Shown: positions 265 to 16,541 of the stretch, one piece after another
Position numbering within the stretch: the stretch's first letter is position 1
Layout: each line of letters opens with the position of its first letter
DNA from: Lachnospiraceae bacterium
GTDB lineage: Bacteria > Bacillota > Clostridia > Lachnospirales > Lachnospiraceae
NCBI GenBank assembly: GCA_017935565.1
Contig: JAGBHK010000028.1
Location: 1-34,958 of the forward strand
Reading direction: 5' to 3'
DNA length: 34,958 bases
Translations under genes and position numbers: made by a program
The notes under the pieces: generated by a model
The model's input: only the letters and a program-made list of their open reading frames with translations
The model's database searches: none
What the model was told of the DNA's origin: nothing

Positions 265-288
265 CATCACTGCCATCGCAGATATAAC

Positions 289-299
289 TATCTCTTTGA
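289..299. repeat. Degenerate rpsI-type att-like site
   Basis: The 11 bases tatctctttga are identical to the core of the 15-bp att repeats at 8907-8921 and 16527-16541. The sequence to the left (tcactgccatcgcagatat, 267-285) matches 15 of 19 positions next to the 8907 copy (tcattgccaacgcgaatat) after a 3-nt gap. I infer an older, diverged att site bounding the defence cluster on the left. Chance is not excluded because the core is short and AT-rich. Confidence 0.4.
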
Positions 300-437
300 T
301 AGCTCGAAAAGCCCGATAACAAGGGATTCCTTACATCACTTGTTGCATACGTGTTTTTCACGGCAGACTACTCAGGACGTCCCACGACTTCTCTGTACTT
401 ACAATCCACATATATCGTTAATTGAAAGGAGCTACTT

Positions 438-680
438 ATGACTAAAATAATTTTTGCAATGTATAACCCTGAAACCGACTGCGTTGAGGTTAGTCTCAAC
501 GATGAAATCCATGTCTCTTTTAACCGTCAAAAATGCAATGCTTCCGTTCATCTGAACGAGCCTTCCGATATTGCTTATCTTACAAAGCTTGCCCGAGAAG
601 GACCCGGGCTGTATGCAAAATTGGCTTCCAGAGATGGCGGATTGCAGGGGTATGTTGAGGCGATGGTGGAGTTTAATTAG
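438..680 (+). CDS. Small hypothetical protein, DUF6061-like
   Basis: An 80-residue acidic protein with no membrane segment or signal peptide. The start is supported by the Shine-Dalgarno sequence gaaaggag 7 nt upstream of the ATG. The N-terminal pattern (short beta strand, YNPETDCVEVSLND, then a C-terminal LAREGPGLYAKL-like helix) resembles small DUF6061-type proteins of clostridial accessory DNA; that family call is from memory and tentative. It stands alone on the plus strand, convergent with the DUF4365 gene, whose stop lies only 9 bp away. I assign no function. Confidence 0.55.
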   Translation: MTKIIFAMYNPETDCVEVSLNDEIHVSFNRQKCNASVHLNEPSDIAYLTKLAREGPGLYAKLASRDGGLQGYVEAMVEFN

Positions 681-688
681 GGGCTCCC

Positions 689-1738
689 CTAATACAAATC
701 AAAATATCCAAAATCATTAATATACTTTACTATCAACTCCGTACATTCACTATCCATACAAGTAATTTCTTTGATATTCTGCATGTAATATTCCTTATTC
801 TGATAAGCTAATATAAGTTCAGCATCATAACGCATATCCTCATCAATTTCACTGTTCAAAATTATATGCAGTAGCTTACTTTCAGAATCCGAAACGTTCT
901 TGATAATTATCTCTGCTATTTGTCCTAGTGACCCTCTATCAAAATAATGTTCCTCTATTATAGACAAAACATTTATTATATCTTCTTTCGAAAACATTTT
1001 CACCTTTTGCTGAACATATTTCTTCGATTCCTCACTGAACTCATGCCTTCCTTCTGTCAACCAATGATCTGGATGATAGTATGCATAAGAAATAGCGTCC
1101 ATAAAATTAGCATAATCAACAATCGCGTCTCTCTTATCGTATAATTCAAAAGCTTTTTCCCACGTTTTTAATTTTTGTGAGAAAAAAATCAGTAACATAT
1201 CCATTGCCAATGCCTTATCTACTGTACTTCCGCCTAGCAATAATAATGCCTCATTAAAATCAATACAAGGTGCTTTTTCACATACTAGAAAGAAAAAATA
1301 CTTCCTAAATTTTTCTTTGGACAACTCATTATGTATAGACATATTAAATTTAACTCTTGATGCTGTTGGATTTTTCAAAAGATATTCTTTTATATCAACC
1401 CAAAACGCAGTCTTTACGCTTTCGTATTTTTCATCCATTACACAAACAACGCCAATTACAGGCATTTCAATTTTCATCCAATATTCTCTATGCGTTCCTA
1501 TCGGGATATAACATTCATCCTTGTCCAAATCATAATAAGACCTGCCAGTTTTGACTTGAACACTTATTAGTTTGCCTATGGGTAATCGTCTCTCATCAAA
1601 CAGTTCTATCTGCCCATCAATGCCAACATCATTTTCCTGTTCAATCTTATGAAAGCTACACATACATTCATCAACAATCGTCGTTACATAGTTTACACCC
1701 TTTTTCCCGAGTTTTATATCTTCATTTAGGTATACCAC
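689..1738 (-). CDS. DUF4365-domain protein, nuclease-like
   Basis: A 349-residue soluble protein. The N-terminal ~150 residues show E35, D37 and D41 in ENDVGIDG, then Q61-V-K63 in ISVQVKTG. This D...(Q/E)xK arrangement is typical of DUF4365 and of PD-(D/E)XK-like folds. The rest is helical, without a recognised domain. The start chosen is the GTG at 1738, 5 nt after the SD gaggtga; a GTG three codons upstream lies inside that SD. An extended -10 promoter is present upstream. It diverges from the double methyltransferase across 181 bp, which suggests a linked defence role. The nuclease activity is inferred, not shown. Confidence 0.7.
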   Translation of the reverse strand: MVYLNEDIKLGKKGVNYVTTIVDECMCSFHKIEQENDVGIDGQIELFDERRLPIGKLISVQVKTGRSYYDLDKDECYIPIGTHREYWMKIEMPVIGVVCVMDEKYESVKTAFWVDIKEYLLKNPTASRVKFNMSIHNELSKEKFRKYFFFLVCEKAPCIDFNEALLLLGGSTVDKALAMDMLLIFFSQKLKTWEKAFELYDKRDAIVDYANFMDAISYAYYHPDHWLTEGRHEFSEESKKYVQQKVKMFSKEDIINVLSIIEEHYFDRGSLGQIAEIIIKNVSDSESKLLHIILNSEIDEDMRYDAELILAYQNKEYYMQNIKEITCMDSECTELIVKYINDFGYFDLY

Positions 1739-1782
1739 ATGAATCACCTCTTATCTTTCACTTCTAAATACAAGCTTATCTT

Positions 1783-1790
1783 ATTATACC
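1783..1790 (-). promoter_or_regulatory. Extended -10 promoter for the DUF4365 gene
   Basis: On the minus strand this reads TGGTATAAT, an extended -10 element about 45 bp before the chosen GTG start. I see no good -35 hexamer at 17 bp, which is tolerable for an extended -10 promoter. Confidence 0.45.
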
Positions 1791-1870
1791 ATATCAGTTG
1801 CTATGTTACCTATACTATTTTATTTATTTTTTTCGATGCGGAAAATTTATTAATATTTTTTTATTTGTGG

Positions 1871-1899
1871 TTGTTTTTTTTCATTCCACTCATTATAAT
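1871..1899 (+). promoter_or_regulatory. Promoter for the double methyltransferase
   Basis: TTGTTT (1871-1876), a 17-bp spacer and a perfect TATAAT (1894-1899). The start codon at 1920 lies only 20 bp beyond the -10, so the leader is very short, with the SD ggagg near its 5' end. Confidence 0.6.
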
Positions 1900-1919
1900 A
1901 GAGCATGGAGGAATATATC

Positions 1920-4799
1920 ATGGAGAATTTTACTGTTTTAAACTATCAAGGAAGCAAAAATAACCTTAGTAGTTTTATACAAAAAAATATAGAACCTTAT
2001 ATACAAGATGGCAAAGCCATATTGGATATTTTTTCCGGTTCCGCAGCTGTCAGTAACATGTTCAGAGATAATTATCAAGTATATGCTAACGATGCTGAAA
2101 GCTATGCAAGTATAATTGCTGACGCGATATTAAATCAAGCAGATATTAACTCTGCAACCGAACTTATCAATTCATTAGATATTGAATATACAACTACAAT
2201 AAAAAAACATGCAAAACCTATTATAGACTTTGTCAAGAAAGAACAGCTTGCTCTTGAGCAAGGAAACTACGAACAACTGATTACTTTATACAACCTGTAT
2301 CCAACTGTATGGAACAATCAATATTCTGATATAACCAAAAACGAATTAACTGTAGACAGTATAAAGCAAACATGTGACTTCTACTTGTTTACAACGTACT
2401 ATGCAACTAATTATTATGGAATAACTCAAGCACTTGATATTGATTGTCTCATTAAAATAATTAATTTACGATTTCCGCAATATAGAAATGCCCTTCTTTC
2501 ATGCTTATTTTATGCTATGAAAGAAACCGTTTTTTCTAAGGATGGACACATGGCACAACCGCTCAGTCTTGAAAAAAACCAAACTCGCCTGTTTATTCAG
2601 CGCCAAAAAAACGTGTATGAGTTGTTTATAAAGAAGTTCAAAGAATATATAACTGTTCCTCTTTCTAAATTTTCAGGAAAGAATATGGTTTTCAATTCGA
2701 ATTTTGAAGATTTATTAGATCAAAAGATATTTTCAAATGTTGGATTAGTATATGCCGATCCCCCATATACAGATATGCAATATTCAAGATATTATCATTT
2801 ATTGAATGTTGCTGCCAAATATGAATATCCTGAATTGACTATTACAAAAAACGGATATACGAAAGGACTATATACAGAAGGACGTTACCAATCCAAATTG
2901 AGCCAACGAAGTTCTGCAAAGCAATCCTTGGAAAACTTAATTAGTTTTTGTGCACATAACAACACTAATTTAGCCATTAGCTATGCTTACCCTCAAGACA
3001 GAGAAAAACAAGCTACCGACAGATACACCATTTCCATTGATGAATTAATTGAACTTGCTCAAAAACACTATACCAACGCTCGCGTTAATGTTGTTACACA
3101 GAATTATAATCATGCCAATCATCGTAACAGCGAACATAAAAAGGTTTTGGAATACCTAATATTGTGTGGAGAAAAAAATATTAATCAAGTTAATATAGAT
3201 TCTTTAAAAAATGAATTATGTAACTTAACACCTACCAAGAACAATCCAATATATAACTCACATATGTATTGGTCTCAAAAAGCCTTTAATATATGCGATA
3301 GCTTAGTAGATGCCTTGTCAAATAGGGGTGATGTCGTTTTTGATCCTTTTCTTGGTTCCGGAGTAACAACACTTGAATCAATCAAAAGCGACTTATCTCG
3401 TTGCGCTATAGGTTGTGACATTAACGATATGCCATTGTTTATTTCAAAACTTTTGTTATCTATCAATGCCACTCCTAATGTAAAAAACACACTTGAAAAG
3501 TTTATTCAAGAACTTAATTCTTTAGAGCATTATTATGACACGGCTTGTCCTAAATGCAATACTGTTGGTACCATTTCAAAAGTAGTTTTCGACAAGCCAG
3601 AACGTACTGGTTCCAATATAACTATAAAAACCATAAATTACAGTTGCGGTTGTACCAAAAAGGGGGTTAAATCACCTGATAAAATGGATTATACCAAGTT
3701 AACCGCAACACGCAAACTTGAAAATGTCACAAGCACTAGTTTGCTGTACAATTCTAAAATTGCCGTAACAGAAAATGACGATATAAAAAATATTTTTACA
3801 GGGCGAAATATTTCTGTTTTAGACGAGATACTTAGCATCATTAAAAAGTACGAACCCGCATATCAAAATATTTTGAAGTATATCCTTATGTCCATACTGC
3901 ATTTATGCAAAATAACCGATAAACATTCAAATTCACAATGGCCATTATGGATACCCAAAACAGATTGTGTTGAGAAAAATATTATTGATATTTACACAAA
4001 AAAAATCAAGAAATTTTATGATGTCATTCCGTTTATGAAAGAAAATTATGCTGATTCAGAAATCGTTGAATCCTATAATATGCTTTCACCGGGAAAATGT
4101 TTACTTATGCAGAAGGGCAGTCAGTTGATTACAGAACAAGATATACCTAACAATGGTGTTGATTTAATCATTACTGATCCGCCCTACCTCGAACAGGTTT
4201 TATATTCGGAATATATGCAATTATATAAACCATTTTTAAATTTAGATTATAATCTAAACGACGAAATAATTGTATCTTCTGCCCCATCTCGTAACAAAAA
4301 CAGAGAGGACTATTTTAATTTATTGGATTTGGTTTTTAATATGTGCTCAAAAAAGTTAAAACCTAATCATTATTTATGTTTATATTTCCACGATTGCAAT
4401 CTAAATGTTTGGAATGAGTTAATATCAATTTTAGAGAAAAATTGTTTTAGATTTATTACCCAAATACATGTGGATAAAACCGTCACATTAAAAAACATTA
4501 TTAGTCCTAAAAAATCATTAAATGGTGATTCTATATTGATTTTTTCCAGAAGTGCTGCCCCTATCAAGCATAATGCCGAGGAAGATGTGTCGGAAATTGA
4601 ACACAATATAATTCGCCAAGCTAAATATATGGTAAAATCAAATGGTTCATTATCTACTCCTGAATTATACGATAATGGACTTATGGAAATTCTAATTCAA
4701 AATGGTTGGCTAGAAAAACTCTCCAGCAAATATTCGTCTCTTGTTGATATTTTTGAAAAACATTTAACTTGGGATTCTTCCACAGCTCGCTGGAAATAA
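1920..4799 (+). CDS. Double DNA methyltransferase with Zn-ribbon insertion
   Basis: This 959-residue protein holds two methyltransferase domains in one chain. The first is D12/Dam-like: NYQGSK near residue 8, AdoMet motif I DIFSGSAAV near residue 38, and catalytic DPPY at 280-283. The second has motif I DPFLGSG at 475-481, an inserted four-Cys zinc-binding segment (CPKC 543-546, CGC 576-578) and a second DPPY at 753-756, as in adenine methylases with a Zn ribbon (COG1743-like). DPPY predicts N6-adenine methylation. I place the start at the ATG at 1920, since the in-frame ATG at 1905 overlaps the SD (ggagg) that serves 1920. It is convergent with the methyltransferase-Mrr gene. It probably protects host DNA from the nearby nucleases (inference). 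Confidence 0.85.
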   Translation: MENFTVLNYQGSKNNLSSFIQKNIEPYIQDGKAILDIFSGSAAVSNMFRDNYQVYANDAESYASIIADAILNQADINSATELINSLDIEYTTTIKKHAKPIIDFVKKEQLALEQGNYEQLITLYNLYPTVWNNQYSDITKNELTVDSIKQTCDFYLFTTYYATNYYGITQALDIDCLIKIINLRFPQYRNALLSCLFYAMKETVFSKDGHMAQPLSLEKNQTRLFIQRQKNVYELFIKKFKEYITVPLSKFSGKNMVFNSNFEDLLDQKIFSNVGLVYADPPYTDMQYSRYYHLLNVAAKYEYPELTITKNGYTKGLYTEGRYQSKLSQRSSAKQSLENLISFCAHNNTNLAISYAYPQDREKQATDRYTISIDELIELAQKHYTNARVNVVTQNYNHANHRNSEHKKVLEYLILCGEKNINQVNIDSLKNELCNLTPTKNNPIYNSHMYWSQKAFNICDSLVDALSNRGDVVFDPFLGSGVTTLESIKSDLSRCAIGCDINDMPLFISKLLLSINATPNVKNTLEKFIQELNSLEHYYDTACPKCNTVGTISKVVFDKPERTGSNITIKTINYSCGCTKKGVKSPDKMDYTKLTATRKLENVTSTSLLYNSKIAVTENDDIKNIFTGRNISVLDEILSIIKKYEPAYQNILKYILMSILHLCKITDKHSNSQWPLWIPKTDCVEKNIIDIYTKKIKKFYDVIPFMKENYADSEIVESYNMLSPGKCLLMQKGSQLITEQDIPNNGVDLIITDPPYLEQVLYSEYMQLYKPFLNLDYNLNDEIIVSSAPSRNKNREDYFNLLDLVFNMCSKKLKPNHYLCLYFHDCNLNVWNELISILEKNCFRFITQIHVDKTVTLKNIISPKKSLNGDSILIFSRSAAPIKHNAEEDVSEIEHNIIRQAKYMVKSNGSLSTPELYDNGLMEILIQNGWLEKLSSKYSSLVDIFEKHLTWDSSTARWK

Positions 4800-4831
4800 C
4801 AAAAATGCGAGGAAATCCTCGCATTTTTGTT
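4798..4831. terminator. Bidirectional terminator between convergent methyltransferase genes
   Basis: A perfect stem of aaaaatgcgagg (4801-4812) with cctcgcattttt (4817-4828), extended by aac/gtt, with loop aaat. U-runs form on both strands, so it serves the plus-strand gene ending at 4799 and the minus-strand gene ending at 4831. Confidence 0.9.
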
Positions 4832-7215
4832 TATACCTCTTGAATTCCATTATAATACTCGCCTGGGAAATATCTATTAAGTCGTTGCATCAACTGATTT
4901 CCATCAACAATTTCAACTTCTAAATCCATTGCGACTTTTTTCCCATCCTTTGTATAACCAGAAGTTGTTACACATACTGCATAATCCAATCCTCTTCTCA
5001 TTCTTTCTGCATATAAACGTTGTATAGGATCTGAACCTACATTTGATGCCCAACGCTTGCATTGGAAAATATAATGTAATAATCTATCCTGATGTCGTTT
5101 AGATGCAATTATATCAACACCTAAATCACCAGCACCACCCATTTTTATAACATTTTCATAACCTTCTTCTTTTAACAAGCTCTGTACTAATATTTCAAAA
5201 TCCGTACCACTTAATGTCGAAATATCAATAGCATCTTCATTAGGTTTGCTAATATCTTTTCTCTCAACATAATATTGCCCGTCTTTTTGGCAATAATTAG
5301 CTATCAGGTTTTCTATATCTCTCTGGTGACTTTCATCCTCTAGTATTTGTGCAATAGTTTTGGGGTTACCATCACATAATGAATTCACTAATTCAAAATA
5401 AACATCTTCCAACACAAACTTACCTTTGCTATTTAAGAGTTGCCTTATAAAAATAGGCATCAAATCATACAATTTGGTATATAAGTCTGTTGTATCCTCA
5501 ATATCCAAATACAATTGATTATTATCTATTTGTATGCAACCAGCATCTACTTTAAAGTATTGCTCTAACAAAGTTTTTATTCTTAATATATCTTGCTCAC
5601 TTGCTATATATGAATACTTCGACTTTAAATCGTTACAAACCAATGTGACAGCACTTGTCAGAGTTACATACTCCTTGGTTCGTATTAAATACGAATACAC
5701 TTTTTTCACAAGCAAAAACTCATAATTTTCGTTTCCGATATACCAATATCTATCAGGCTCCGGTAACTTATAGAAAACAACTATCATCTCATTCATAAAT
5801 GTATTGGTAAACGCTGATTGTTTTCGCATTGTTGGATCTTTTTTCTCAACACCAACTTGATATGCATATTCAAACCCATTTTTCCGTGCCAAATTTACAA
5901 TTTCAATATATGTTTTAAAATACTTTGCTTTCCCTAGCTTCATAGTAAAGAAAACAAGCCCATCATCATTTAAAACTCGAGAAAAATGTGCAAACATATT
6001 ATCAATATCTTTATAATAATTCTCTATATCTCTTTTTGTAATTCGGCTTTCCGCATTTGTTTGAACAATCTCTTGCTCTAACATATCTTCTGTTAAAGCA
6101 TATTTAGAATCATAGAACTTTTCCAACCATACACGATATAGCTGATTTCTCTCCAAGTATGGAACTTGATCCGTATACGGAAAATCTGTATATATAACAT
6201 CTACTTTCAAATCAGGATTTTCATCTATATAAGACGCATAGTCCTTATTTGCAATTATCACCTCTGAATCTGTCGTTCCGATTTGTTTTGTGTTATATGA
6301 CGCCTTAAACTTGCAGAAACTTTTGAATTTATCTTCGAAAAGTAACCAAACATTCATATCTTGTGCACCATGCCCTACCACATGATACAAAATGTCTGTG
6401 CTTGAACCATACATTGCAATCCTTGCAAGGGAAATAGACGCAACTAAAACTTGTTCTAACACATCCCTTTCTCCAGATATTTCAAGTTCATTTATTGCAT
6501 CCTGTAATATCAACAATGCAATCTTATTTCTTTGTGTAAAAATCCTATCATATTTATCTGCCCCAGTTGATGCAGTAATATTAATTCTACTGTTTACAAT
6601 GTATTGATTTCTCGGAAATCTATCTACATTCACCTTATCCAAACTAATTAGTTTTTTATAATCCTGTTCATCAAATTTTTTCGCTTTTTCACCACAAACA
6701 GGACATTTTTCTACAAGTTTTATATTTTTCCCATCTATAATTTCTCTATTACCAGACGGATTAAAGTACCCCTCTTTACCTTCCTCTGGATCAAATAAAA
6801 CTTTGTTTATATAGTTCTTACAACCGCAACAAGATGTTTCGTATAATGCCATTATTTCTTCATACACTTTACTTTTCACGACATTAAAGAGATCTTCCAA
6901 TTTGAGCATATCCACTCTATTCATCAAGGCAGCAACTGCATTAAAAGTGTAATTGTCCAGTTCGGTTGCATAAATCTTCTTCACCTTTCCCATTGCTGCA
7001 TACACAAACGAACCTGACCCCATAAAAGGATCATATACAATATCATCACTATCGCACACTGCTTCTATAACTTTTTCAGCTATATCTGGCGATTTACGTC
7101 CTTTAAAATTAAAAGTTGTTCGCATTTCATTTGGGACAGTATTAGGAACATCTTCTATTACCGTCTTGATTCTATTTAATCTAATTTTTACACTCTCAGG
7201 TATCTGCTTTCTCAT
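4831..7215 (-). CDS. DNA methyltransferase fused to Mrr-type nuclease
   Basis: A 794-residue fusion. The N-terminal half is an adenine-type methyltransferase: motif I DPFMGSG at 62-68, a cysteine-rich insertion (CCGC...CPVC) comparable to the Zn ribbon in the double methyltransferase, and motif IV as TDFPY (344-347) instead of the usual DPPY. The central ~200 residues are unassigned. The C-terminal ~130 residues are an Mrr-type restriction domain with GVD (D701) and QCK (718-720), the PD-(D/E)XK signature. The chosen ATG is 9 nt after AAGGAGG; an upstream in-frame GTG abuts the SD. It overlaps the preceding HTH gene by 20 bp and is last in its operon. It may modify and cleave DNA in one polypeptide. 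Confidence 0.85.
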   Translation of the reverse strand: MRKQIPESVKIRLNRIKTVIEDVPNTVPNEMRTTFNFKGRKSPDIAEKVIEAVCDSDDIVYDPFMGSGSFVYAAMGKVKKIYATELDNYTFNAVAALMNRVDMLKLEDLFNVVKSKVYEEIMALYETSCCGCKNYINKVLFDPEEGKEGYFNPSGNREIIDGKNIKLVEKCPVCGEKAKKFDEQDYKKLISLDKVNVDRFPRNQYIVNSRINITASTGADKYDRIFTQRNKIALLILQDAINELEISGERDVLEQVLVASISLARIAMYGSSTDILYHVVGHGAQDMNVWLLFEDKFKSFCKFKASYNTKQIGTTDSEVIIANKDYASYIDENPDLKVDVIYTDFPYTDQVPYLERNQLYRVWLEKFYDSKYALTEDMLEQEIVQTNAESRITKRDIENYYKDIDNMFAHFSRVLNDDGLVFFTMKLGKAKYFKTYIEIVNLARKNGFEYAYQVGVEKKDPTMRKQSAFTNTFMNEMIVVFYKLPEPDRYWYIGNENYEFLLVKKVYSYLIRTKEYVTLTSAVTLVCNDLKSKYSYIASEQDILRIKTLLEQYFKVDAGCIQIDNNQLYLDIEDTTDLYTKLYDLMPIFIRQLLNSKGKFVLEDVYFELVNSLCDGNPKTIAQILEDESHQRDIENLIANYCQKDGQYYVERKDISKPNEDAIDISTLSGTDFEILVQSLLKEEGYENVIKMGGAGDLGVDIIASKRHQDRLLHYIFQCKRWASNVGSDPIQRLYAERMRRGLDYAVCVTTSGYTKDGKKVAMDLEVEIVDGNQLMQRLNRYFPGEYYNGIQEV

Positions 7216-7687
7216 CTGACTCACCCTCCTTAATTAACTCATATGTAGGTTTTCCCAATGCTTCCGCCATTTCATCTAATTTACTTAATGGTGGGGTTTT
7301 AAAATTTTCTTCTCTAAAATAAGATTTCAAAACATCTTCACTGACAAAGCCATAAAACAAGGCAGCCTTTTCACTCCAAGAAAATCTACCATACTGCATA
7401 AAGTATTCTCGTAGATTTGAAATCAAGGCATTTCTAGAATTATTTTTTATACATTCAATTTCAATAAACAGATTTCCGTCTTTTTGTAATAAAGAATACG
7501 AATAGCATTTAATCCTATCACCAATTTCATCAATTTTCTTTAACGAAGGAGACCTACTTTTATTTTGCCAACGTTTCAACGCATCTTCTGTAACGTCCAA
7601 ATAATCTGCAATTTCTCTATAAGTTTTTAAATTATAATGCTTTGCAATTCTATTTATATTATCTACAAATATATCTATCGAAGGCAC
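7196..7687 (-). CDS. Tandem Cro/CI-like HTH protein, probable controller
   Basis: A 163-residue protein with two HTH-like units: about 22-58 (REIADYLDVTEDALKRW) and about 104-152 (EKAALFYGFVSEDVLKSYF then LDEMAEALGKP). The second looks like a diverged copy of the first. It starts at GTG, 6 nt after the SD gaggtga; no alternative ATG lies nearby. It overlaps the upstream nuclease-like gene by 13 bp and the downstream methyltransferase-Mrr gene by 20 bp, so the three are translationally coupled. A control-protein role at the palindromic sites upstream of the operon is inferred from position; specificity-subunit or adaptor roles are also possible. Confidence 0.6.
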   Translation of the reverse strand: MPSIDIFVDNINRIAKHYNLKTYREIADYLDVTEDALKRWQNKSRSPSLKKIDEIGDRIKCYSYSLLQKDGNLFIEIECIKNNSRNALISNLREYFMQYGRFSWSEKAALFYGFVSEDVLKSYFREENFKTPPLSKLDEMAEALGKPTYELIKEGESDEKADT

Positions 7688-8622
7688 ACTGCTTCACCTC
7701 TATCAATCATCTTTCGTACGTCGCCAATATTTATTGTTGCTTCTAAACGCCTCACCTCTTCCCTTTGTACAAACAATAATGACAACTTATTTTTCAATAT
7801 CGTGACTATTGCTTTGGGATCACAAATATAAACATTTTCAACAACAAACTCTTTTTTATTAACAACAGCTAAAACTATCTTTTCATCCTGCATATATGAT
7901 TCCAACACATTCTCAGAAATATCCTGAAATTTCCACGAATACTTCTTTGTCACCTTGTACTCATATGTTCTTCCTTGTTGATCACATGCATCATGTTTTC
8001 TTTGTTCTGGGTTAATTCTATGTCCTAATTCACCAGACACCAATAATTCCCACAGTTTATTACTAGTCAATATCCCTCTTATTCCTGTAATCAATTCAAT
8101 TTCGTTTGCTACTGTAAAAACATCCCGAAGAACATTTGACACTTTTACTGGATTAGGTCTTATAACATTATACCTCATATTGTTAACAATCTGACGTCTG
8201 CTAATATTTTTCATTTTTCTATGATTCAAAATATTCGTAGTACTATTTTCTAAATACTTTGCTACTTCTGCTCCTTGTACGATATATACCTCTTTAACTT
8301 CATGGATAATAGGAGCATCATTAATAATTGCAAAATACACCTCTTTGACATCATACAATTTTTCTATCGTAGCATCCGTAAAATCATTAAATGTCCATGT
8401 AGGATTGGAACTTGACATTTTAAAATGTTTATATTCATATAAATTGCCATCCATATCTACTGCATCCAATGTTTTTGCATGCCCATTTATTATTTTGTGA
8501 CCGAATTGTTCCGACATTAGAACTTCATATATCTTACTGTTAGTATAAACATCCTCTATACCACTAGCATAAAATATATCACTTAACTGTTTTAATCGCT
8601 CTATTAATTGCCATAAGTCCAT
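7675..8622 (-). CDS. Duplicated PD-(D/E)XK-like nuclease candidate
   Basis: A 315-residue protein built from two similar ~130-residue units. Unit 1 has GHKI, then D53-A-x-D56 and YEYK with E63 and K65. Unit 2 has GHRI, then D211-A-x-D214 and YEYK with E221 and K223. Each follows with W-x-F-x-D and a hydrophobic strand pair (VYFAII, VYIVQ; VLAVVN, VYICD). The repeated D-x(n)-E-x-K is what PD-(D/E)XK restriction nucleases use. I know no family name for it. The ATG at 8622 is preferred because the GTG at 8631 lies within the SD gaggtga. It is first in the operon with the HTH and methyltransferase-Mrr genes, so it may be the main effector (inference). Confidence 0.65.
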   Translation of the reverse strand: MDLWQLIERLKQLSDIFYASGIEDVYTNSKIYEVLMSEQFGHKIINGHAKTLDAVDMDGNLYEYKHFKMSSSNPTWTFNDFTDATIEKLYDVKEVYFAIINDAPIIHEVKEVYIVQGAEVAKYLENSTTNILNHRKMKNISRRQIVNNMRYNVIRPNPVKVSNVLRDVFTVANEIELITGIRGILTSNKLWELLVSGELGHRINPEQRKHDACDQQGRTYEYKVTKKYSWKFQDISENVLESYMQDEKIVLAVVNKKEFVVENVYICDPKAIVTILKNKLSLLFVQREEVRRLEATINIGDVRKMIDRGEAVCLR

Positions 8623-8660
8623 ATAAATCACCTCATACTATATATACAACAGCCGCCTTC

Positions 8661-8704
8661 ATTATATGTGACTATTTGTCACTTCTTTATATGTATTATG
8701 TGAC
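8661..8704 (-). promoter_or_regulatory. Promoter and operator of the nuclease-HTH-methyltransferase operon
   Basis: On the minus strand a perfect TATAAT (8661-8666) follows a palindrome gtgac-n5-gtcac (8668-8682), with a third half-site at 8700-8704. The -35 is weak. A palindrome overlapping the promoter spacer is the usual layout for autoregulatory restriction-modification control proteins, here perhaps the tandem-HTH protein. Confidence 0.45.
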
Positions 8705-8821
8705 TTATTCGTTTTTTTATGGTTTGGAGGTCGGTTCACTTGCCATTCGCTCTTTTTTTGTCATCACCATGCACCTCGATTCCACTTATGTTCCATCTCG
8801 GTCGCGGGCTTCGCCCTATCC

Positions 8822-8881
8822 TTGCAAATGTCAAAAGGTCCGGCCAAGAGTAAACTCTTGCCGAACCTTTTACATTTACAA
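8822..8881. terminator. Long hairpin terminator left of the satellite att site
   Basis: The arms run ttgcaaatgt-aaaagg-cggc-aagag against ctctt-gccg-cctttt-acatttacaa, with two single-base bulges and a few mismatches, about 27 bp of stem around a taaa loop. It lies 25-35 bp left of the att repeat. Before the satellite integrated, it would have been the terminator just downstream of rpsI. Confidence 0.75.
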
Positions 8882-8906
8882 GCGCATGGCTCATTGCCAA
8901 CGCGAA

Positions 8907-8921
8907 TATTATCTCTTTGAG
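8907..8921. repeat. Left att site of the satellite
   Basis: The 15 bases tattatctctttgag are identical to 16527-16541 at the end of rpsI. On the minus strand they carry the final rpsI codons (S-K-R) and the stop TAA, so the element duplicated the gene end when it integrated. Confidence 0.85.
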
Positions 8922-16526: not shown

Positions 16527-16541
16527 TATTATCTCTTTGAG
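16527..16541. repeat. Right att site within the end of rpsI
   Basis: The 15 bases tattatctctttgag cover the last rpsI codons and stop and match 8907-8921 exactly. The intact gene lies on this side, so integration preserves S9. Confidence 0.85.

Follow-up and report, generated by a model that had tools for sequence, protein, structure and literature searches.

The window analysed here is the whole of contig JAGBHK010000028.1 (34,958 nucleotides) from the draft assembly of a Lachnospiraceae bacterium (GCA_017935565.1; 2.48 Mb in 45 contigs), and its left part carries five genes, designated P1 to P5, that span positions 689 to 8631 and of which P2, P3 and P4 form the core of a probable type II-like restriction-modification system. 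P2 (1905-4799, plus strand; 964 amino acids) is a predicted fused double DNA methyltransferase, and P3 (4831-7224, minus strand; 797 amino acids) combines a methyltransferase-type module with a C-terminal Mrr nuclease domain. The third core gene, P4 (7196-7687, minus strand; 163 amino acids), encodes a putative regulator with two homologous helix-turn-helix (HTH) halves. The two remaining genes are P5 (7675-8631, minus strand; 318 amino acids), an optional member predicted to encode a single-chain, duplicated PvuII-like nuclease, and P1 (689-1747, minus strand; 352 amino acids), which has a DUF4365 domain of PD-(D/E)XK type and a helical C-terminus. The reading frames of P5 and P4, and of P4 and P3, overlap head to tail, P1 and P2 are divergent, and a terminator-like site was looked for between P2 and P3 and not found. 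A first-pass annotation made from the DNA sequence alone had described five open reading frames (ORFs) here, arranged as coupled nuclease, HTH and methyltransferase/Mrr genes next to a divergent P1/P2 pair, and both the ORFs and the arrangement were confirmed. Its three methyltransferase domains were recovered by Pfam, spread over two proteins (P2 and P3), and its three kinds of PD-(D/E)XK signature correspond to DUF4365, Mrr and a PvuII-like type that is present twice.

Related loci were fetched using P3 (one, L119, using P2), and the shares given below therefore describe P3-bearing loci. Among 398 genomes of the phylum, 96 contained some match to P3, in nearly every case limited to either the Mrr or the methyltransferase part, and a full-length P3 besides that of the window was present in a single genome (G354), where P2 and P4 adjoin it and P5 and P1 are absent. 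With a P3 alignment, a scan of 84,980 species, each represented by a single genome, returned 30 loci, comprising 21 with P3 (L087-L107) and nine that matched the Mrr part only and were dropped (L108-L116). Viral contigs contributed two loci found via P3 (L117, L118) and one found via P2 (L119), and an unannotated faecal 'Bacteriophage sp.' record (MT836948.1; L086) holds all five genes in the same order, with P5 cut by the end of the record. After duplicates were removed from the count (L107 is the G354 contig, also fetched as L084, and L118 is the L101 locus), the total of 26 loci including the window gave 25 distinct loci, one of which (L095) is cut by a contig end. The hosts of the P3 loci are Bacillota and one Spirochaete, in addition to the viral contigs, and the record titles name Lachnospiraceae, Veillonella, Phascolarctobacterium, Youngiibacter, Alkalithermobacter and one Spirochaetales metagenome-assembled genome.

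P2 adjoins P3 in 22 of the 25 distinct loci, lies on another contig in two and was not found in one. The two genes are convergent in 21 loci, separated by -8 to 47 bp, and stand in tandem on one strand in L119. P4 is present in 20/25 loci, once in truncated form (L092), and P5 in seven, with a remnant in one more. These distributions define one conserved core of P4, P3 and P2, shared by many unrelated bacteria, with P5 and P1 as optional neighbours, and the co-occurrence test in other genomes that the first-pass annotation had proposed was passed.

In P2, a D12-type adenine methyltransferase half (Pfam MethyltransfD12, 1.3e-14) is followed by an N6/N4-type half (N6_N4_Mtase, 3.7e-19) with a cysteine-rich insert, and by eye the likelier start is the ATG at 1920, which is preceded by GGAGG. 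The DPPY motif is present in both halves in 22/22 aligned rows, and motif I is recognisable in the rows of the N-terminal half (P2-N) and in 21/22 rows of the C-terminal half (P2-C), the exception being L119. The protein is split into two separate genes in six loci. Relatives of P2-N and P2-C occur in other restriction loci, including a LlaJI-type locus with two methyltransferases, and the P2-N relatives adjoin either a BglII/BstYI-type nuclease or LlaJI-type genes. No match to P2 was confirmed in a single-protein scan of viral sequences, plasmid searches yielded only partial relatives of P2 and P3, and searches of PDB sequences with these two proteins gave just short methyltransferase matches.

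P3 matches N6_N4_Mtase (6.4e-13) and, at residues 669-780 of 797, Mrr_cat (3.4e-23). Its methyltransferase module has motif I near residues 65-71, a cysteine-rich insert at 132-177 and DFPY as motif IV at 347-350, and the Mrr residues D704 and Q721-x-K723 are kept in 24/24 complete P3 rows. Pfam detected a methyltransferase domain in P3 but not the N-terminal winged-helix reader of modified bases that type IV Mrr enzymes carry. A single-protein scan with P3 also returned 41 viral loci, which were set aside because their similarity is confined to short segments around motif I.

Across 20 loci, the pairwise distances of P3 correlated with P2-N distances at r 0.963 and with P2-C distances at r 0.982, and across 16 loci with P4 distances at r 0.964, values that were reached in 0/5000 permutations; the sample left out L119 (too distant), L088 (a near-copy of L087) and loci lacking an adjacent P2, and for P4 also L092. 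Both P3 and P2-C are nearly identical between L098 (Veillonella) and L107 (a Clostridiales genome), a sign of the module moving as a unit. In a 52-row tree, the N-terminal part of P3 (P3-N; 24 rows), P2-C (22 rows) and six solo relatives fell into three separate groups with starred support, the tree program warning of long branches for L119, L139 and L142. P3-N and P2-C belong to one methyltransferase family as sister-type groups; with the co-inheritance, this indicates an old paralogy between P3 and the C-terminal half of P2, which travel together. The solo relatives adjoin a BrxA-family gene or DUF2357 proteins, the latter not always accompanied by an annotated AAA ATPase.

P4 is a probable controller protein. 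It matches HTH_3 at 1.4e-4, slightly below the family cut-off, and profile comparison of its two halves showed them to be homologous (E 5.5e-17 over 70 columns; two cross comparisons run as controls gave E 0.093 and 0.041), so that it has two HTH halves in one chain and is not of the small, single-HTH homodimer type. An operator, GTGACAWATAGTCAC, occurs as an exact match before the operon in the window, L087, L088, L090 and L097, and with one change in L089, L091 and L095, giving eight of the 24 scanned loci, all of them close relatives, with scores of 14 or 15 of 15 compared with at most 13/15 in 200 shuffles of each same stretch. In the window, this proximal operator (GTGACAAATAGTCAC; 8668-8682, minus strand) has 5-bp arms and a 5-bp A/T spacer, and the motif is unique even at two mismatches (0.12 expected). 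In all eight operator loci, a weaker second copy is retained exactly 32 bp upstream by its right arm, [AG]TCA[CT]; in the window this copy is the distal half-site AAACGAATAAGTCAC (8700-8714, minus strand). The operator precedes the first gene of the operon, whether this is P5 or P4, and among the 136 fetched loci its 14-letter pattern is restricted to the fronts of these operons (seven loci, two of which are the window itself). Among the remaining scanned loci, L094 has a decayed site at shuffle level and the other 15 have none. This paired operator before the restriction operon is newly described here.

The arrangement resembles that of the Csp231I/EcoO109I class of controller proteins, for which the portions of PMC3115060 and PMC4824078 consulted describe a pair of 5-5-5 inverted repeats at a distance of about 18 bp. 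Shared features are two operators with 5-bp arms and an A/T-rich 5-bp spacer, set about three helical turns apart; the 15-bp sites stand 32 bp apart here, compared with about 18 bp between sites in that class according to the same part of PMC3115060. Unlike members of the class as described there, P4 has two fused HTH halves within its 163 residues, and the distal site keeps one half only. By analogy, P4 would bind this operator.

P5 probably starts at 8622, where by eye an in-frame ATG follows a ribosome-binding-site-like GAGGTGAT (the open frame itself extends to 8631). Its two halves are homologous (E 1.3e-17 over 101 columns by profile comparison, with the same two controls as for P4), which together with the corresponding result for P4 bears out the duplicated nuclease and tandem HTH of the first-pass annotation, and the protein is a true internal duplication of a predicted PvuII-like nuclease. 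The putative catalytic triads are D56/E66/K68 and D214/E224/K226, and the D-x9-E-x-K pattern is kept in both halves in 7/7 sequences. Pfam Endonuc-PvuII (PF09225) matches P5 at 2.9e-6 with 27.8 bits against a cut-off of 25 (20.4 bits for the same gene in a six-frame search) and matches 5/6 P5 members at E up to 0.1. Across the 398 genomes, PF09225 exceeds its cut-off only in G437, whose PvuII-type nuclease (L148) shares the D-x9-E-x-K spacing. The N-terminal half of P5 aligned collinearly with this protein at a score of 22.7 (maximum 18.2 in 60 shuffles), and the C-terminal half alone scored 13.8, where shuffles reach 23.7. A search of PDB by sequence with P5 returned no PvuII chain and no useful match, and the sequence link between P5 and PvuII is of moderate strength. 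In G437 the PvuII-type gene lies between methyltransferase-like and controller-like genes.

The remnant of P5 noted above lies before P4 in L089 and comprises 35 residues of the C-terminus (62.9% identity, E 1e-7), with the operator further upstream. P5 is dispensable, as this locus keeps the remnant only while the P3 and P2 frames are open. P5 had no match in plasmids or in a single-protein scan of viral sequences. Four other matches at E about 1e-4 among 299 genomes of the family were judged by eye to be a false lead; we take these proteins to be WhiA. With PvuII-type proteins, P5 shares the D-x9-E-x-K spacing, besides a PF09225 match that clears the cut-off in one search and falls below it in the other, and it differs from PvuII in having two nuclease copies in one chain, where PvuII has one domain per chain and acts as a homodimer. 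A single-chain PvuII has been made by engineering (Simoncsits 2001, as cited in the part of PMC3850674 available), and no description of a natural one was found in the literature searched. The type IIT enzymes BbvCI and Mva1269I, in the account given by the relevant section of PMC4081073, likewise have two different catalytic sites for a non-palindromic sequence, some in one chain; the halves of P5 differ from these in being PvuII-like and homologous to each other.

P1 is probably a passenger. It matches DUF4365 at 1.5e-20, it occurs in only two of the 25 distinct loci (the window and L086), and a search of 60 relative genomes found it in none besides its own.

Gene content, conservation, paralogy, co-inheritance, intact catalytic motifs and the conserved operator together suggest that P2, P3 and P4 probably constitute an uncharacterised type II-like restriction-modification system. 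P2 would methylate host DNA, its two unlike domains most likely marking one strand each of an asymmetric site, and P3 would be the restriction enzyme, in which the module paralogous to P2-C may find the site of P2 and the C-terminal Mrr nuclease cut where that site is unmarked. P4 is proposed to bind the paired operator before the restriction genes and thereby delay P3 and P5 in a newly entered cell, so that P2 could act before P3 (and P5) accumulates. Where P5 is present, it may act as a single-chain PvuII-like pseudo-dimer that provides a second cut, perhaps at a non-palindromic site.

Linked DNA methyltransferase and nuclease genes, as in type II systems, are observed for P2 with P3 in most loci. 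Comparison with type IIG/IIC enzymes such as Eco57I and BpuSI, which in the part of PMC4081073 seen combine nuclease and methyltransferase in one chain with a separate companion methyltransferase, shows a likeness in that P3 joins both domains and P2 is separate. The portion of PMC4389544 available places the nuclease of classic type IIG enzymes at the N-terminus, with target recognition at the C-terminus, unlike P3, whose nuclease is C-terminal and of Mrr type. LlaJI, according to the sections of PMC1459862 at hand, has an asymmetric recognition site and two methyltransferases that are both 5-methylcytosine (5mC) enzymes. The cluster resembles the LlaJI type in its two predicted methyltransferase activities, a possibly asymmetric site and the occurrence of P2-N relatives in such a locus, and differs from it, on the same partial source, in the 5mC chemistry of the LlaJI enzymes and in having no McrB-like NTPase or McrC-like nuclease among its five proteins. 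The cluster fits type II in the broad sense only: its domains are not ordered as in type IIG, it lacks the McrBC-like parts of LlaJI, and Pfam did not find the type IV reader.

Pfam and PADLOC-type scans of the cluster proteins revealed no BREX or DUF499/DUF1156 partners (PglZ, BrxC, DUF499 ATPase), and similarity to PglX- and DUF1156-type methyltransferase models was weak only. In PADLOC, the proteins match individual models of type II methyltransferases and nucleases (among the best 25 of 41 families for P2 and the best 25 of 31 for P3), and no PADLOC set covering the cluster was seen when single-protein model matches were inspected, system rules not being applied. A methyltransferase-Mrr fusion beside a double methyltransferase was not described in the literature searched, which did not cover REBASE predicted names. 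The idea of a composite restriction system with no described match is supported. The unusual parts are the fusion, which is paralogous to the system's own modification enzyme, and the natural tandem PvuII-like nuclease.

Several observations weigh against this interpretation. Mrr domains are best known from cutters of modified DNA. Motif IV of P3 is DFPY in 21/25 rows and DPPY in four (L101, L102, L104, L119), so that methylation by P3 itself may be lost. Shared host ancestry can contribute to the correlated distances, the operator is not recognisable in 16/24 scanned loci, and P4 is missing or unrecognised in five of the 25 loci (L093, L094, L099, L102, L119). P2 was searched for in the genome of L095 and not found. 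In L091 and L093 the contig continues for 169 and 103 bp beyond P3 and, by eye, contains no P2 end there, and a full-length P2 lies on another contig in both genomes (79% and 62% identity, respectively). The L091 copy ends 130 bp before a contig end and an assembly break may separate it from P3; in the genome of L093, P2 stands apart from P3 on a contig that runs on for 8.3 kb, of which the 2.6 kb examined contained no P3.

The best-surviving alternative, which is nevertheless unlikely, is a modification-dependent, type IV-like activity in which P3 would sense foreign methylation by means of its methyltransferase-like module and cut with its Mrr domain, and P2 would be a separate epigenetic or masking methyltransferase. 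The QxK Mrr-type nuclease of P3 is consistent with this, as is the precedent of E. coli Mrr, a PD-QxK nuclease acting on modified DNA in the portion of PMC12707154 consulted. The missing winged-helix reader and the co-inheritance of P2 and P3 argue the other way, and a resident P2 would mark targets for P3. Even less probable is the presence of two systems in one operon, with P5 and one methyltransferase domain forming a PvuII-like system and P3 with another a type IIG-like one. The optional, co-operonic occurrence of P5 and the three methyltransferase domains of P2 and P3 would fit, but the architecture of P2 and P3 is unchanged without P5, including in L089, and no gene is gained or lost along with P5. 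The two halves proposed by the first-pass annotation, P1-P2 as one system and P5-P4-P3 as another, agree with how the genes are ordered and oriented in the window and in L086 but are hardly credible, as P2 adjoins P3 in 22 loci whereas P1 occurs in two and P5 in seven; two systems back to back gave way to a single core with two optional neighbours.

The type II-like reading admits a tentative and somewhat doubtful extension, in which the sequence reader of P3 would be a decommissioned methyltransferase, paralogous to P2, that changed motif IV once, kept its S-adenosylmethionine (AdoMet) motif and senses the marks of P2, with P5 as a naturally occurring PvuII-like pseudo-dimer in one chain that would act on a non-palindromic site, and P4 as a single-chain, pseudo-dimeric controller. 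The four DPPY rows of P3 fall outside a 20-row, all-DFPY clade (support 92/84, not starred), which fits a single DPPY-to-DFPY change.

From 16,529 on, the window is chromosomal (S9, L13, TruA, CbiQ, L17, RpoA, adenylate kinase, SecY and others). An element integrated in the 3′ end of the S9 gene is flanked by identical copies of a 15-bp repeat, at 8907-8921 and at 16527-16541; when up to two mismatches are allowed, this repeat matches three times in the window (0.24 expected). The element encodes a tyrosine integrase, a regulator and a D5-type primase, and an HK97-type capsid protein is the only virion gene product recognised among the proteins scanned between 8907 and 16541. In the sister genome G002, the S9 end runs directly into the terminator sequence that corresponds to window 8767-8921, left of the element, which shows the empty site of the element. 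The restriction cluster is beyond the S9 terminator and outside the integrated element.

A cassette model, in which attachment sites at 289 and 8907 would flank the cluster, was rejected, as the sister has the ordinary S9-gene terminator left of 8921; it is also contradicted by the recurrence of window 277-679, with a DUF6061 gene, in another sister beside unrelated cargo. A third copy of the 11-bp core TATCTCTTTGA is present at 289-299 (three in the window, 0.06 expected), adjoining the DUF6061 gene that recurs in G006 near unrelated cargo. The 3′ end of the S9 gene is a changing site: four sister contigs (G001, G002, G003 and G006; L161-L164) carry four gene sets there, three with methyltransferase or restriction genes and one with a UvrD-HSDR_N protein. 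Positions 1-138 of the window are the terminal part of a mobile-element protein gene and share 84.9% identity with sequence that bears the annotation 'mobile element protein' in Streptococcus phage Javan118, which is probably why the contig ends there. Other loci have neighbours of their own. Two genes divergent from the core in L090 (5611-8735) match PADLOC SspF (4e-13) and, weakly, SspG (2.8e-6), a gene upstream of P4 in L096 (338-1180) matches the candidate defence family PDC-S14 (1.3e-109), and the core copy of G354 (L084/L085) adjoins a primase, a serine recombinase and, by eye, a capsid-like protein.

The locus represents a compact, horizontally moving restriction-modification architecture of which no description was found. 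As a natural counterpart of the engineered single-chain PvuII, P5 would offer a starting point for asymmetric-site cutters. If P3 reads DNA via a paralogue of its own modification enzyme, it would be a direct example of a restriction enzyme that has inherited its specificity from the modification enzyme shielding the host. The system may also hinder DNA transfer into its Bacillota hosts.

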